From contig OX031062.1 of the NCBI GenBank assembly GCA_943736015.1, positions 57,400,962 to 57,464,961 on the forward strand: a DNA stretch of 64,000 bases. The letters run 5' to 3'. Under the pieces are notes generated by a model. That model saw nothing but the letters and a program-made list of their open reading frames with translations. It had not been told where the DNA came from and ran no database searches. This DNA is from Tridacna crocea (Eukaryota > Mollusca > Bivalvia > Cardiida > Cardiidae). Below, piece after piece: positions 6,201 through 63,153 of this stretch (the stretch's first letter is position 1; each line of letters starts with the position of its first letter). Made by a program: the position numbers and the translations under genes.

Positions 6201-7738
6201 AGTAGCAATGGAGAAAATGGCTTTTATTAATACGTTTGAGGAAAAATCAGGCCTGTTTTAGCTCCAGATTTTTCTAAACTGCCGATCATAGCTGAATGAA
6301 TTGCACCAGGTAGCGTTTTATTGAGTAAACATATATTTTAGTTTGAAATTCAAAGTAACTGTTGTTGTGTAGAACAGCGATTTGGTTCTGTGCCCAGGAT
6401 GCCTAAATTAGATAGACGAGTATTTGTAGAATGCCATCTAACGGGAGATAATGCATGTCAAGTACATAGTATTCAGGCTCAAACTCTCACCTAGTTGTTT
6501 TTTGAGAGAGAGCTTTAACCCTTTCCCACATGGCAGAATTTTAGACCTTTCCAAATTGAAAGCTGTCACTGAATGTGACTTAATACCCCTGCCAGTGCTT
6601 TGACAGTAACAGGCAATTACATGTACTAGTATTTTGTACACATGGACAGACACATGGACGGACAGGCTGATTCCAGTATATCCCCGGAATACATTTGTTT
6701 TGCGGAGGTACGATAAGTAAGCAGATAAAGAGGTTTCAGTTACCTTTTCAAGAATAGCATCAAGTAGAGGCATGTTGTCTTTTTGAGCTTTTATTGTATG
6801 AGAAAAGAAGCAGTATGTTTTGTCCGGCATAAGCAGATCTATTGGTACTTGTTTCACGCCAATGATCACAGATGCTTCACTCATGTCCTCTTGAATGACT
6901 GCTCCTTTGTCTGCATACTCCTACACAAACAAACAAAAATTCAAATCGGATTCATTAACCCTTTCCCAAAAAATGCCTGGTTTTTACGGGTCTGGAATAG
7001 TAGCCTTTTGAAAACATTGTGGGAAAAGGAGAAAATGCTGGTAACCAGCATTTTCTCCTTTTTCCACAATGTTTTCTACCCTATCATAGAGAGAAATCAT
7101 CTTTTCAGCAAGAGTTGAATTGTCGTCTGCTAATGCTTTCAATTTGATCTAGTCTGAAAGTTTGTTATTTGGGAAAGGGTTAATACTATCTGGATATTTC
7201 AAATTACTTCACTGAGCTGTTTTAAGCCTTTCCCAAACAGCAAATTTTGGAGCAGACCAAACTCAAAGCATTTTGCAAATCACAAATTAACAGCTGCTGA
7301 AAGGATGATTTTTCTATATGTTGTAAGAACTTGTTTCTCAATCAATGTAAAATAAATATGTTTCAACTAAACTTTTCTACCCTTCCCAAAACAAGTTTCA
7401 ATGTTTGAGTTACATTAATTTTGTCGTCTGCAAATGCCTTCAATTTGGTCCAGTCTGAAATTTTGTCAATTAGTAAAGGGTTACCACACCTGCATACTAA
7501 ACGCTCTCCTGTTTGAAGGCTGAACAATAACTTTGGTTCCTTTCTTTACTAAGCTTTGAACCTGGCTGGGTGAAAGCGGTGCCCTACGCTCCCATACATT
7601 GATGGTTTCCCGCCGGATTGCCACAACTCTTCTATCATTGGTTGAAATCCATCTTATACAGTGGTCACAAGAAACACGCTGTTGACTCTTTAAATGATTC
7701 CATAGGAGCTGAGATCTCTGCCTCCACATTATTGTACC
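279..7738 (-). CDS. AASS: Alpha-aminoadipic semialdehyde synthase, 5' half (lysine-ketoglutarate reductase domain), partial
   Basis: Bifunctional mitochondrial enzyme of lysine breakdown; this half condenses lysine with 2-oxoglutarate to saccharopine. Coding exons on the minus strand: 7729-7490, 6920-6744, 6068-5916, 5234-5088, 4384-4306, 3470-3343, 2509-2235, 1331-1220, 338-279. All have AG/GT borders and their phases join without a break, giving 457 residues. The start is the first ATG after the acceptor at 7738; it opens a basic Arg/Gln-rich leader typical of mitochondrial import. Then come [18 protein letters not shown] and VQPSNRRAF (AlaDh/PNT N-terminal fold, about 48-78), [13 protein letters not shown] (178-190), [20 protein letters not shown] (220-239, dinucleotide-binding loop) and [14 protein letters not shown] (about 363-376). 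The saccharopine dehydrogenase half would lie left of the window. The exon at 279-338 is the least conserved but has ideal splice sites and phase. The 5' UTR exon was not found. Nearly every intron carries MITEs. Confidence 0.95.
509..655 (+). mobile_element. TTAA-MITE, palindrome core lost
   Basis: Left half normal (CACTTTACCAAACAAC...GCAGATGACAAC); the core collapses from ACTGTGGGA straight to TGTTTTCC, and the right end is missing. Here and in the entries below, + means the GCATTTGCAGACGAC half comes first. Confidence 0.6.
790..978 (+). mobile_element. TTAA-MITE, decayed
   Basis: Recognisable by ATCTGCAGACAGCAA, an altered core and the terminal GTGGTAAAGAGTTAA shared with the next copy. 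Confidence 0.55.
975..1202 (-). mobile_element. TTAA-MITE, intact
   Basis: Both TTAA ends and the full palindrome are present. It shares its left TTAA with the decayed copy to its left. Confidence 0.85.
1456..1683 (-). mobile_element. TTAA-MITE, intact
   Basis: TTAA at both ends with an extra TTAACC just inside the left end. It sits in the AASS intron between the exons at 1331 and 2235. Confidence 0.85.
1766..1993 (+). mobile_element. TTAA-MITE, right TTAA decayed
   Basis: Left TTAACCCATTACC and a perfect core. It ends GTGTGGTAATAAG and is followed by a scrap of another copy (1999-2055). Confidence 0.8.
2621..2855 (+). mobile_element. TTAA-MITE, intact
   Basis: Complete copy with the GGTTACCAGC centre. 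A strongly decayed copy (2856-3077) follows directly. Confidence 0.85.
3074..3312 (-). mobile_element. TTAA-MITE, decayed
   Basis: Altered core (GCCAGCAACCAGGATTTTC). Its right end lies 30 bp from the AASS splice donor at 3342. Confidence 0.6.
3556..3782 (+). mobile_element. TTAA-MITE
   Basis: The left TTAA is mutated to TTAG and the right one is intact. The core is mildly damaged. Confidence 0.75.
3785..3965 (-). mobile_element. Decayed SINE body fragment in an AASS intron
   Basis: TTGCAGCAGCCAGTGCATCT and GTCACTGGCTTCCTTTCCGC resemble the body of the SINE at 59893. The head is absent. Confidence 0.4.
4047..4273 (-). mobile_element. TTAA-MITE with both palindrome arms changed in step
   Basis: The arms read GTTCGAAAAAGAG and CTCTTTTTTCGAC instead of GTGGGAAAAGGAG and its inverse, so pairing is largely kept. 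Terminal TTAA is lost at both ends. Confidence 0.7.
5461..5688 (+). mobile_element. TTAA-MITE, CCCTTTCCCAAAC subfamily, intact
   Basis: A reference-quality copy. The core is a perfect 65-bp palindrome (32-base arms around a single unpaired T). Termini are TTAACCCTTTCCCAAAC and GTTTGGGAAAGGGTTAA. Confidence 0.9.
6225..6450 (+). repeat. Dispersed repeat, copy 1 (AASS intron)
   Basis: Segments such as GTAGCGTTTTATTGAGTAAA and GAATGCCATCTAACGGGAGA occur inverted at 9345-9580. It lies between AASS exons 3 and 4 (counted from the start codon exon as 2). Confidence 0.55.
6956..7183 (-). mobile_element. TTAA-MITE, CCCTTTCCCAAA subfamily, intact
   Basis: It lies in the intron 35 bp from the AASS acceptor at 6921. 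TTAA is present at both ends. Confidence 0.9.
7203..7483. mobile_element. Two TTAA-MITE halves in opposite orientation
   Basis: A left half (+, 7203-7320) and a right-hand half (-, 7374-7483) without a palindrome core. The second ends about 6 bp before the AASS exon donor. Confidence 0.6.
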
Positions 7739-7802
7739 CTGTGAATATGAACAAGTGTTACAGTTGCAGAGCTCTAGAAAAGGGGGAGTTGATGATTTTC
7801 TT

Positions 7803-8036
7803 GACTCATTACCGAACGAAAATATTTCAGGCTTGTCCAAATCGAAAGCATTAATTTTGCAGATGAAAAAAAAACCGAGTGACAGAAAATTTGAAATTTG
7901 TTTTGTGGAGACTAGAAAACATTGCGGGAAAAGGAGAAAATGCTGATTACCAGCATTTTCTCCATTTCCCATAATGTTTTCTAAAGGCTTCTTTCTCAGC
8001 GTCATCAAAAGTAGGGATTGTGTGATAATGGGTTAA
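7803..8036 (+). mobile_element. TTAA-MITE
   Basis: Good core with a GATTACCAGC centre. The right TTAA is intact and the left end reads CTCATTACCGAACG. Confidence 0.8.
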
Positions 8037-30830: not shown

Positions 30831-31266
30831 GGACCGAGACGGATGTCAGACACTTAGACCCCTGACCATTTAGACCCCTTAAAATTTGGGTGACAATTAG
30901 ACCCCTGAGACACATAGACCCCTATTTTAGTGAGACACTTAGACCCCTATTTTCAAAAAGAAATTCACATATTAATTAACTATGTTTATGGATTGTATTA
31001 CTTGTAAATCTTGTCTTGAAACATGAAACAAGTATTTTGACTTTTGAGACCATAAATTGATACAGAAATGAGTGAGTAGCTGATGAAATGATTTTGAATT
31101 ACTAAGAGTCAACAGAAAATTTAAACAGGCATCTCTATTTTTAGTTCTTTTCCATGGTATGCTAAATGCTCTTGTTTTTCAAAATTCCACATAATGTTTC
31201 GTATTTTTAGTAGAATATGGGTAACAAACTTTTGTCTGGTAAGTTAATGTATGACTTTAGTACATA

Positions 31267-31463
31267 TGTAGTATACTGGTCTATCCCATAGATAGATGTA
31301 AAGGTATAATGTAGTCGGGTACAGGTATTTGGTGATATATCGTGCGGCCGTATCGACATGTGGTTCAGTAGCTCAGTTGGTTAGAGTGCAGGAACGGTAT
31401 TCCTGAGGCCCTGGGTTCGAATCCCGGTCGAGCCGCGATATATATTTCACCACCGGTTATACA
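31267..31463 (+). repeat. 5' LTR of the TRIM-like element
   Basis: This 197-bp LTR begins with TG and ends with CA. It differs from the 3' LTR at a handful of sites, for example CAGTA versus CGGCA at the start of the tRNA-like part. The low divergence suggests fairly recent insertion. Confidence 0.75.
31362..31435 (+). ncRNA. tRNA-like fold in the 5' LTR (Thr-GGT-like, probably not functional)
   Basis: The 74 nt fold as a cloverleaf: acceptor GGTTCAG/TCGAGCC (one mismatch, with wobble pairs), D arm GCTC/GAGT, anticodon stem CAGGA/TCCTG with loop ACGGTAT, and T arm CTGGG/CCCGG. A box TAGCTCAGTTGG (31369-31380) and B box GGTTCGAATCC (31414-31424) match the Pol III consensus. Position 33 is C rather than U, so a working tRNA is unlikely. 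Confidence 0.6.
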
Positions 31464-31557
31464 TTTGGCGCCCAACGTAAATAACCCACTTATTAAGAGA
31501 GATAGGGTAGTAGTGATTTAGAGATTCGTGGACGAATCTTCATGTGGTGGGGAAGTA

Positions 31558-31754
31558 TGTAGTATACTGGTCTATCCCATAGATAGATGTAAAGGTATAA
31601 TGTAGTCGGGTACAGGTATTTGGTGATATATCGTGCGGCCGTATCGACATGTGGTTCGGCAGCTCAGTTGGTTAGAGTGCAGGAACGGTATTCCTGAGGC
31701 CCTGGGTTCGAATCCCGGTCGAGCCGCGATATATTTTTCACCACCGGTTATACA
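31558..31754 (+). repeat. 3' LTR of the TRIM-like element
   Basis: Partner of the 5' LTR, preceded directly by the polypurine tract at about 31544-31555. Confidence 0.75.
31653..31726 (+). ncRNA. tRNA-like fold in the 3' LTR
   Basis: Same cloverleaf as in the 5' LTR. Here the acceptor GGTTCGG/TCGAGCC pairs at all seven positions (counting wobbles), while the A box starts CAG instead of TAG. The anticodon loop is identical. Confidence 0.55.
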
Positions 31755-31782
31755 TAGATTAATTACCTTTATAAATTTGTAT

Positions 31783-32014
31783 GAACCCTTTACCACACAG
31801 TGCCGACTTTTGACGACCCTGAGAAAGACGCCTTTTGAAAACATTTTGGAAAAAGGAGAAAATGCTGGTAACCAGCATTTTCTCCTTTTCCAACAATGTT
31901 TTCCCTCCTCTTCCATACAAATTTTGAATTGTCAGTCACTTTTATTTTGACCTCTGCAAATGCTTTCAATATATTTGGACCAGTCTAAAATTTTGTTGTT
32001 TAATATAGAGTTAA
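31783..32014 (-). mobile_element. TTAA-MITE next to the TRIM element
   Basis: The core reads TTTTGGAAAAAGGAG with matching CTCCTTTTCCAACAA. The left TTAA is altered and the right one intact. Confidence 0.75.
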
Positions 32015-61900: not shown

Positions 61901-63153
61901 GTCATAGAATCTGTTTCCTCATTAATGCGATATTTAACAATCCACTTGGGTTTTTTTTGAGGCAATTTCGATTGCCTGTATTACAAAATCTCGGAAAATT
62001 AGAAGTAGAAGTACTCTTCGTAATTATGACGTGCGTACATTACTTGCTGACAGTAAAAGTTGTCTAGAAAAGGCAACTTCGTGATACTTCTCTTTAATGT
62101 TCTTCTTTGCTTCTTGGTGGGAACAGGGTTCCGTACCCATGTGAACTTGTAGCCCATTGGAGAGGTCTTCAAAATGTATTGAAATTACAAGCCAATAAAC
62201 TATTTGAAAACAACGATGCTGACCTCTCTTGGCTTCTTTTTTTTAAAGAAAAACCAACTTGTTCAAGTTTGCGCTGATTTTAACTCATAGGTTGATTCTG
62301 AAGATCAAATTGTACAGTCAGTTATTATCACCGTTCGCTTTGTAGTTAGATACTAGCTTAAGATATAATACTTTATACCTTTTTGTTTGAGTCTGTAATT
62401 TCCTTAGATAATTTACCAATCTCTGCGGTCGCAGTTAACCCCTTCCCAAATAGTCCCTGGTTCTCTCGACCCTGAAAAAGAAAAGGCTTTTTAAAACATC
62501 GTGGGAAAAGGAGAAAATGCTGGTAACCAGCATATTCTCCTTTTCCCACAACGTTTTCTACCTTCCCAGGACAAATTTCAATTTTTGAGTCACATTAATT
62601 TTGTCGTCTGCAAATGCTTTCAATTCGGAACAGTCTAAAATTTTGTCGCTTGGTAAAGATTTAAGCAGTTGCCGTGATATTTTCAGATTACGGCGGCGTT
62701 TATTTTGACTGGGATCAAGTATTACTACGACCTATCGACGAACTACGGCGTTATGACGTCACCATGGGACTGGAAACCCCGAATGCTCTCGCAAACGGAA
62801 TGATTCTATCGGCACCAAACGCAACCTTTCTACAATACTATTATGATGGTTACAAGAATTATACGGGCGAGTGGAATTATAACTCGATTCAATATCCTTA
62901 CAAACTATCCACAGAGTTTCCGGATCTCGTACACATTGCTGGGTACTATTTTTTTCAGCCTTTTTACTCGCTGTCACACTTGTACTATAAAGAGAACTAT
63001 AATTGGGCAGATAGTTATGCTATGCATTTTTACTACATCAAACTTTACACCAAAAAGTATTCAACGTTTGAAAGTATTCGACACGTAAACACAACACTTG
63101 GTGCCGTATGGAGGCACGTACTATTTGGTAATAAGGAACTCTGTGCCGATTAA
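58940..63153 (+). CDS. Type II membrane glycosyltransferase with DXD sugar-binding motif (GT32-like)
   Basis: Exons 58940-59132, 60331-60885 and 62687-63153 join in phase (G+AC, T+AT) into 404 residues ending at TAA 63153. The short cytosolic N-terminus is followed by a membrane anchor YSVFVLVMITVLVYVLAFKC (about 13-32) and a lumenal catalytic region. Family landmarks are VPNVVHYVWFD (about 160-170), HGADVMRLEALL before the exon junction, and YGGVYFDWDQVLLRPIDELR, whose DWD (about 256-258) is the metal/nucleotide-sugar DXD. Several sequons (NIT, NGT, NSS, NAT, NYT, NTT) fit a Golgi lumenal protein. It resembles the family that includes alpha-1,4-galactosyl and GlcNAc transferases, but donor and acceptor cannot be told from sequence. 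An upstream in-frame ATG at 58805 would put about 45 residues before the anchor and lies in repeat DNA, so I prefer 58940. Both introns contain foldback DNA. Confidence 0.88.
59163..59378 (+). mobile_element. TTAA-MITE just inside glycosyltransferase intron 1
   Basis: Starts about 30 bp after the exon 1 donor (59133). The ends have lost TTAA; the core is good. Confidence 0.75.
59631..59868. mobile_element. Palindrome array: alternating AATGACCCGGGTCATT and CTCTACGTAGAG motifs
   Basis: The element is bounded by inverted GTGCAATGCAGAGAAATGAC and GTCATTTCTCTGCATTACAC. Between them two different short palindromes alternate about five or six times. It lies in glycosyltransferase intron 1. Any stretch can pair with its neighbours or with distant units. 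Confidence 0.7.
59893..60126 (-). mobile_element. SINE body in glycosyltransferase intron 1
   Basis: Carries GGCTGCTTTCCCACATAACG, AATCCTGTCGCAATGACTAA and GGAAATTGGCCGAGCCGGGA on the plus strand. It is broken off within the tRNA head. Confidence 0.55.
60943..61080. repeat. 138-bp imperfect palindrome with inner hairpin
   Basis: GTACGGTCAGGTGGCAGGGG at the left is the inverse of the right end, and pairing continues through ACTTGGAAACTTGTT. An inner GTCGCC/GGCGAC stem forms the tip. It starts 57 bp after the exon 2 donor of the glycosyltransferase. Confidence 0.75.
61285..61905. mobile_element. Foldback element, GGACAATTGCCCCC arm family, in glycosyltransferase intron 2
   Basis: The left arm (61285-61470) is a C-rich array of GGACAATT/CATTGCCCCC phrases. 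The right arm (61700-61905) is the inverse, with repeated GGGGGCAATTGTCC. The spacer is about 230 bp. Phrases vary in spacing but keep the ACAATTG core. No coding capacity. Confidence 0.7.
62435..62664 (-). mobile_element. TTAA-MITE ending 22 bp before glycosyltransferase exon 3
   Basis: Both TTAA present (CCCCTTCCCAAA end). The remaining intron is only ...GATATTTTCAG. Confidence 0.85.

Follow-up and report, generated by a model that had tools for sequence, protein, structure and literature searches.

Results and Discussion

A short LTR element with a tRNA-like unit in each LTR

The stretch of Tridacna crocea DNA analysed here (64,000 nucleotides of contig OX031062.1, hereafter the window) carries a Helenus-type element of 488 bp on its plus strand (31267-31754), consisting of two LTRs, a primer-binding site (PBS) and a purine tract. 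Comparison of the window with itself returned direct repeats at 31265-31464 and 31556-31755 (99% identity across 200 nt). The LTRs proper, delimited by the boundaries observed at 40 loci and by LTR alignment, are 197 bp each (5′ LTR, 31267..31463, TGTAG...TATACA; 3′ LTR, 31558..31754) and differ at 3 of 197 positions. The 94-bp internal region starts with TT followed by TGGCGCCCAACGT, the 13-nt PBS, which begins two bases past the LTR (31466..31478) and is complementary to the 3′ end of tRNA-Lys(CTT); 18-nt copies of that tRNA end are found beside sister LTRs (see below). Further downstream are a hairpin, AGATTCG-TGGA-CGAATCT (31522..31539), 18 nt upstream of the 3′ LTR, and the purine tract GGGGAAG (31549..31555), the putative plus-strand primer, of which variants occur across copies; the region ends with TGGGGAAGTA. 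The longest ATG frame of the element comprises 36 amino acids. A preliminary description of this DNA had proposed a miniature LTR retroelement (TRIM) with exactly these LTRs, a tRNA-Lys PBS, a purine tract and a 94-bp interior, which both the repeat comparison and the sequence confirm.

The tRNA-like units that had been noticed in the LTRs were recovered by covariance search (Rfam RF00005): the one in the 5′ LTR (31362..31435) scored 49.2 bits (E = 1.6e-7), the one in the 3′ LTR (31653..31726) 48.6 bits (E = 2.4e-7), the gathering score being 29 bits. ARAGORN assigned both to Thr(GGT). At the gathering score, Rfam returned these two tRNA matches only for the whole window, and no 5S rRNA in the LTRs. 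The boxes of the internal RNA polymerase III (Pol III) promoter were assessed with a pattern built from what we take to be the A- and B-box consensus. The A box (31369..31380, TAGCTCAGTTGG) and the B box (31414..31424, GGTTCGAATCC) of the 5′ LTR, described earlier as perfect, are indeed intact. In the 3′ LTR, the first T of the A box TRGCNNARNNGG is replaced by C, and the B box is intact there as well. TTTTT at 31734..31738 in the 3′ LTR is the predicted Pol III terminator and RNA 3′ end; at the corresponding site of the 5′ LTR (31443..31447) the T-run of the family is lost and reads TATTT. The element is flanked by CATA and TAGA, hence a target duplication is absent, and it has an extra 2-bp TA at the LTR 3′ end compared with its relatives.

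Just downstream of the element, at 31837-31903, lies a near-perfect 33-nt inverted repeat (..GAGAAAATGCTGGT/ACCAGCATTTTCTCC..). Since like palindromes are present in the flanks of three other loci (L113, L114 and L117), it is considered a repeat that neighbours some Helenus copies. Elsewhere in the window, exon-like frames on the minus strand (6438-8032) match the alanine dehydrogenase/PNT N-terminal domain (PF05222), one with E = 1.8e-7 and one, below the cut-off, with 1.9e-4; another exon-like frame on the plus strand (62665-63153) has a weak match, below the cut-off, to a DXD glycosyltransferase (PF04488).

An interspersed family with 4-bp target duplications

The genome searched comprised 1,048,827,098 bases in 31 contigs. 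The whole element as query was found at no fewer than 42 places (at least; the best 40 of 1164 first-look candidates were scored). The search with the 197-bp LTR that had been proposed gave at least 55 matches (best 40 of 1113 candidates scored), and the internal region at least 42, two of which are fragments (best 40 of 235 candidates scored). The family is interspersed. The 42 places amount to 40 loci because two of them are three-LTR tandems (L051, L056); two loci with common flanks (L048, L049) probably represent one duplicated locus. As the 40 loci were selected by similarity to the window copy, they lean to young copies, which has to be considered for the observation that 6 of the 40 LTR pairs are without any substitution and that the median difference is 2.1%.

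An exact 4-bp target duplication surrounds 34 of the 40 loci; 5 bp were read at two, and neither at four, including the window copy. Among mismatched flank pairs, 4 bp agreed by chance in 19 of 1560. The duplication typical of the family is, thus, 4 bp and not 5 bp, as had been suggested. A PBS is recognisable in all 40 copies (its first 20 nt are unchanged in 29), and the pattern of the PBS region, with up to three mismatches, occurs at 313 places in the genome (reversed control, 0). The earlier worry that copies elsewhere might prove to be tandemly duplicated SINEs without PBS and purine tract, or that the PBS match might be unique to this locus, is answered by copies that possess PBS, purine tract and 4-bp duplications, and by the number of places at which the PBS is found.

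The family of the window copy was designated type A. Copies of type B (L015, L017, L022, L030, L034) have the LTR core and the PBS in common with it, but their LTR starts ~40 bp later, without the initial part of the A-type U3, and their internal region differs; their primer sites are often one base off (TGGCGCCCACCGT). The single copy of type C (L118) has a diverged LTR, T-runs and the duplication ATCA/ATCA; its tRNA-like unit was not called by ARAGORN.

Some loci are rearranged. The Helenus copy L074 (C12:9923272-9923807) has two 3′ ends in inverted orientation and is flanked by the duplication ATTT/ATTT; apparently, an inverted-LTR cDNA was inserted whole, by way of its two U5 ends. At L085/L086 (C11:46731450-46731918), the internal region between a pair of A-type LTRs is swapped for ~45 bp without assigned origin, located between a primer-site variant, TGGCGCCCAACGGGGG, and the purine tract; perhaps this is another capture, comparable with those described below. 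On C2 and C9 (L089-L095), solo Helenus LTRs lie in long inverted repeats, ~60 bp inwards of the repeat ends (for example, C2:75533410(+)/75549608(-)); the repeats are at least 1.7 kb long, 98-99% alike, ~16-19 kb apart and part of a large repeated unit. Although the arms looked Polinton-like, no frame of more than 100 amino acids was found in the two of the seven inverted-repeat loci that were scanned (L091, L092).

Pol III boxes and T-runs are kept across the family

Of the 80 LTRs at the 40 loci, 74 have an intact A box and 72 an intact B box, and ARAGORN assigned 68 to Thr(GGT). With a mean frequency of 0.023, non-majority bases are rarer in the tRNA-like part than on the U3 side (0.036) or distally (0.045). 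The tRNA-like unit is followed by TTTT in 38 of 40 5′ LTRs and in all 40 3′ LTRs; a strict pattern, applicable to 67 of the 80 LTRs, measured the gap as 5-8 nt. Moreover, 36 of the 40 copies contain exactly two TTTT, each no more than 10 nt past a tRNA-like unit; the exceptions are two copies without the 5′ run and two with one extra run. The same holds for type B, where the five loci have one T-run per LTR and none elsewhere (two in each of the four two-LTR copies, three in the three-LTR copy), and the C-type copy has two. The copies are kin, so that these counts are not independent of each other. As a control, the window was cut into 288-nt pieces, and TTTT was absent from only 38 of 1328; the 786-bp LTR of the Gypsy element introduced below, in contrast, contains 14 T-runs. 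The pattern is as a Pol III terminator bounding the R region would produce, and together with the promoter boxes it is in keeping with the predicted transcription of the element by Pol III. Because the same T-run is present in the 5′ LTR as in the 3′ LTR, most Pol III transcripts should end early, and read-through would be required to obtain a full-length RNA.

Copies of the tRNA-Lys primer next to LTR ends

For the following comparisons, the tRNA-Lys(CTT) sequence was presumed to be that of human. The complement of the 18 nt at its 3′ end, including CCA, is found without mismatch at 11 places in the genome (control, 0). Six of them, at as many loci (L103, L105, L106, L109, L110 and C9:17355435), directly follow the end of an A- or B-type LTR, ...TGTTACATT. 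In L110, a seventh lies in tandem with the first at a distance of 5 nt; L108 follows a C-type LTR, L104 is the PBS of a Gypsy element, and the other two are L107 and L111. Where the copy is linked to an LTR, similarity to the tRNA stops at 18 nt; in L106 and L108 it extends to 19 nt and in L109 to 20 nt, a surplus of one or two bases that chance would produce. A block at methyl-A58, as in retroviruses, would cause such a stop at 18 nt.

The exception is L105 (within locus L114), where the antisense copy runs on, with errors, to tRNA position 2. Positions 2-76 of human tRNA-Lys are matched there at 86.8% (E = 6e-22), and the copy passes into an inverted LTR, the last ~11 nt fitting both the tRNA and the LTR; the insertion as a whole is flanked by CAAA/CAAA. 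In L113 and L116, an LTR plus 18 nt, resembling plus-strand strong-stop DNA, abuts genomic sequence, and no exact duplication is present. At L115, a normal internal region comes after the 18-mer and has a primer site itself, which is altered. Judged by their structure, the LTRs ending in a copy of the tRNA-Lys 3′ end are to be regarded as fossilised products of failed reverse transcription, and they support the notion that tRNA-Lys(CTT) primes this reaction and that copying of the primer during plus-strand synthesis usually halts after 18 nt.

A Gypsy family with matching signals, and two chimeras

One chimera (L018, C9:17355238-17355814) has inverted LTRs and the duplication GGGA/GGGA, and holds a piece of 118 bp, positions 12-103 of which (92 bp) match eight other places, seven at 97-98% and one at 79%. 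Open pol frames are present at two of these (L101, L102), and that of L101 matches rve (1.3e-14) and Integrase_H2C2 (1.2e-7) in Pfam; the captured piece itself, 38 amino acids, gave no Pfam match. Four of the eight places (C10:215 kb, C1:209 kb, C16:646 and 656 kb) are no more than 0.7 Mb from a contig start.

The 3′ LTR of this Gypsy family, the candidate helper, is visible in the copy on C2 (L123; TGTAACC...GGTTACG). Its 5′ end was absent from C10:209.6-212.9 kb and was located via the junction at L119, where an LTR end homologous to that of L123 (95% over 264 nt) is followed by AA and an 18-nt primer site. A search with this junction found 29 places, of which six (L119, L130-L134) comprise an LTR end, a PBS and a leader. 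All six have the primer site TGGCGCCCAACG; five have the LTR end GGTTACA and one GGTTAGA. LTR, pol and LTR are linked at C1:64895510, 64903556 and 64905317, and again at C1:200847, 209287 and 211377, giving elements of ~10-11 kb with LTRs of 786 bp. This ~10-kb family shares with Helenus the tRNA-Lys primer site as well as LTR ends in TGTA...TTACA; alignment of the A-type LTR with the helper LTR yielded nothing significant (best E = 0.44). L123 (C2:2333500-2335100) also contains a second hairpin, of 6 bp, 362 nt before the helper 3′ LTR, followed by a purine-rich stretch, which is possibly a second plus-strand primer.

In the second chimera (L135-L136, C2:2344.0-2344.5 kb), a Helenus internal region, starting from within the PBS, with hairpin, purine tract and LTR (96.9% over 191 nt) is followed by AA, PBS and leader of the helper. 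The piece on its left resembles Gypsy pol by eye only (27 amino acids, no Pfam match); the 92-bp pol sequence recurs ~7.8 kb past the chimera, as in the helper at C1:64.9 Mb. Since several rearranged Gypsy copies are clustered in this part of C2, the second chimera could be due to DNA recombination. No chimeras other than these two were found.

A hairpin at a fixed distance from the 3′ LTR

The hairpin of the window copy is intact, 18 nt before the 3′ LTR, in 36 of the 40 A-type copies and broken in four. At the same distance, type B has AGAATTCG-GGA-CGAATTCT in five of six internal regions (broken in one; a further B-type internal region, in L114, has an altered hairpin), and the helper has AATGACG-GGA-CGTCATT, exactly 18 nt before the LTR in 7 of the 7 3′ ends examined. 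A hairpin of the GGA-loop kind is absent from the C-type copy. The stems, hence, vary (AGATTCG, AGAATTCG, AATGACG), and pairing, loop and spacing are constant. The loop rule is post hoc, because it was framed after types A and B and one helper copy had been seen, and the remaining six helper copies, all closely related, agree in their 18-nt spacing, which serves as a consistency check. GGA-loop hairpins with at least seven pairs occurred 25 times in 8.0 Mb of Markov sequence, and on both strands of the window only that of Helenus reaches seven pairs. Compared with shuffled sequence, folding energy was not exceptional in the window copy (z = -1.18) or in the helper (z = -1.26).

Because primer site, LTR ends and the hairpin-purine tract module are shared, and two chimeras exist, one ~10-kb Gypsy family is likely the helper of Helenus in this genome, from which its enzymes would be obtained. 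With close to an even chance of being right, we propose in addition that the purine tract and the GGA-loop hairpin, located exactly 18 nt ahead of the 3′ LTR, may jointly be a cis signal by which Gypsy proteins recognise their own RNA; Helenus, despite being putatively made by Pol III and otherwise mostly unlike its helper, would, as a minimal parasite, have retained the module along with primer site and LTR ends.

Alternative explanations

A tRNA-derived SINE, tandemly duplicated and devoid of any LTR mechanism, would, in each repeat, likewise have a head that resembles a tRNA and contains both boxes, and three-LTR tandems do exist in the family; PBS and purine tract would then be coincidental. 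Such an element should consist of a single unit with a tail and have duplications of variable length. What was found is an LTR pair with TG...CA ends, duplications of fixed length at 34 of 40 loci, a PBS in every copy and primer fossils beside the LTRs. A pattern search for the T-arm without the LTR tail gave three genome places only; thus, no abundant SINE source was seen. Given the fixed 4-bp duplications and the primer fossils, a tandem SINE with a chance PBS was rejected, its probability being negligible. That the element disperses genuine tRNA-Thr genes is suggested by the consistent ARAGORN assignment (68 of 80 LTRs), but the units of the window score just ~49 bits in Rfam, and Thr(GGT) is, to our knowledge, not a usual eukaryotic nuclear anticodon. 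As, in addition, few Helenus families could encode a tRNA according to the main text of the publication describing them (PMC10886601), this reading was rejected, too, as very improbable.

More serious is the objection that the same TRIM may be transcribed by Pol II from U3, with the tRNA-like unit as a relic or in another role (boundary, decoy). U3 does contain TATA-like stretches, and T-runs in both LTRs would end Pol III transcription early. On the other hand, the boxes are intact in most LTRs, divergence is lower in the tRNA-like part than in U3 or the distal part, and the confinement of TTTT to the LTR runs (38 of 40 copies) would be needless for Pol II; moreover, the ~40 bp with which the U3 of type A starts are missing from the B-type LTR. 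Transcription by Pol II is, for these reasons, considered unlikely. Concerning the helper, the Gypsy piece might have been captured by chance from another packaged RNA, the true helper being a different Gypsy with a tRNA-Lys primer site. Other bivalve Gypsy elements carry such sites (Kojima, PMC10886601, main text), the LTRs of Helenus and the proposed helper are alike at their ends only, and there are but two chimeras. Yet the family that was first found via the captured pol piece proved to share the primer site (6/6) and the LTR end motif, too, and has its hairpin at the identical 18-nt spacing (7/7), which renders a different helper rather improbable.

Proposed mode of propagation

The preferred reading is that the element is a Helenus-type TRIM, a non-coding LTR element that probably has its own Pol III promoter and would be copied in trans by Gypsy. 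Its anatomy, the target duplications, the primer fossils, the signals shared with Gypsy and the chimeras are apparent from the sequence. Within the 5′ LTR, Pol III would bind both boxes of the tRNA-like unit and start near the 5′ end of the unit, read through the 5′ T-run and halt at that of the 3′ LTR. R would then consist of the tRNA-like unit plus about a dozen nucleotides, as needed for minus-strand transfer. Reverse transcription would be primed by tRNA-Lys(CTT), with the plus-strand copy of the primer mostly stopping at 18 nt, as the fossils suggest, and integrase would insert the product with 4-bp duplications, as the target sites indicate. The enzymes would be supplied by one Gypsy family of the same genome, and the hairpin just before the purine tract may be the cis signal that lets Gag or reverse transcriptase of the helper handle the TRIM RNA. 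Pol III transcription, read-through, packaging and the role of the hairpin are what we infer from these features.

Relation to known elements

The preliminary description had regarded an animal TRIM with a tRNA-like unit in its LTR as comparable to, but distinct from, Cassandra, the plant TRIM with 5S rRNA in its LTRs. The distinction stands, and such elements were published in 2024 under the name of Helenus (Kojima 2024, PMC10886601). According to the main text of that study, Helenus elements are TRIMs of 311-1263 bp with tRNA-like units in their LTRs and no protein, their target duplications in animals are 4 bp, tRNA-Lys is among the primers, and Gypsy is the presumed partner; 51 families from five bivalve orders are described, and seven bivalve families could encode tRNA-Thr. 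The window element belongs to this class, having a tRNA-like unit in both LTRs, PBS and purine tract, a family duplication of 4 bp (34/40) and 488 bp without a protein, and is possibly already catalogued if the species is in the list of Kojima. A and B boxes in the LTR unit, the tRNA-Lys primer and Thr-like units (in some bivalve families) are further likenesses, as are tandem arrays, reported there for a zebrafish family (PMC10886601, main text).

Cassandra, as summarised in the same text, is similar in having a Pol III promoter and conserved terminators in the LTR and a transcript thought to begin in the 5′ LTR and finish in the 3′ LTR, but it is of 5S origin, occurs in plants and has a terminal repeat of 18 bp, whereas here the whole tRNA-like unit would be R. 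Ajax, a nemertean TRIM with part of a 5S rRNA, likewise has a Pol III promoter in its LTR but differs by that 5S origin and by 5-bp duplications (PMC10886601, main text). The biv-TRIM of bivalves (PMC6934838) is a small non-coding LTR element of molluscs with solo repeats and tandems, too; its abstract names no tRNA-like unit, and it is set apart by description only. The main text of PMC10886601 mentions terminators only in the passage on Cassandra, and neither hairpin nor template switch; in the sections covered here, neither a chimera with a partner nor a primer fossil comes up. The T-run that would bound R, the candidate helper with shared signals and chimeras, and the putative primer fossils, hence, go beyond that main text. 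No title or abstract was found on primer fossils, a hairpin next to the purine tract or chimeras between a TRIM and its partner, and a 2026 meeting report that names Helenus (PMC12859917) adds nothing new in the part available.

How the dependence of a TRIM on its autonomous partner is maintained is not known, as stated in the main text of PMC10886601. A pair of TRIM and helper with shared signals and hybrids makes three short signals testable in this regard. The fossils point to natural priming by tRNA-Lys(CTT), to the 18-nt stop and to read-through of the primer in an animal retroelement. If transcription by Pol III were confirmed, a Gypsy particle could take up a Pol III RNA, and, if the hairpin module is indeed a recognition signal, Helenus, as a minimal parasite, would show what a Gypsy particle needs.
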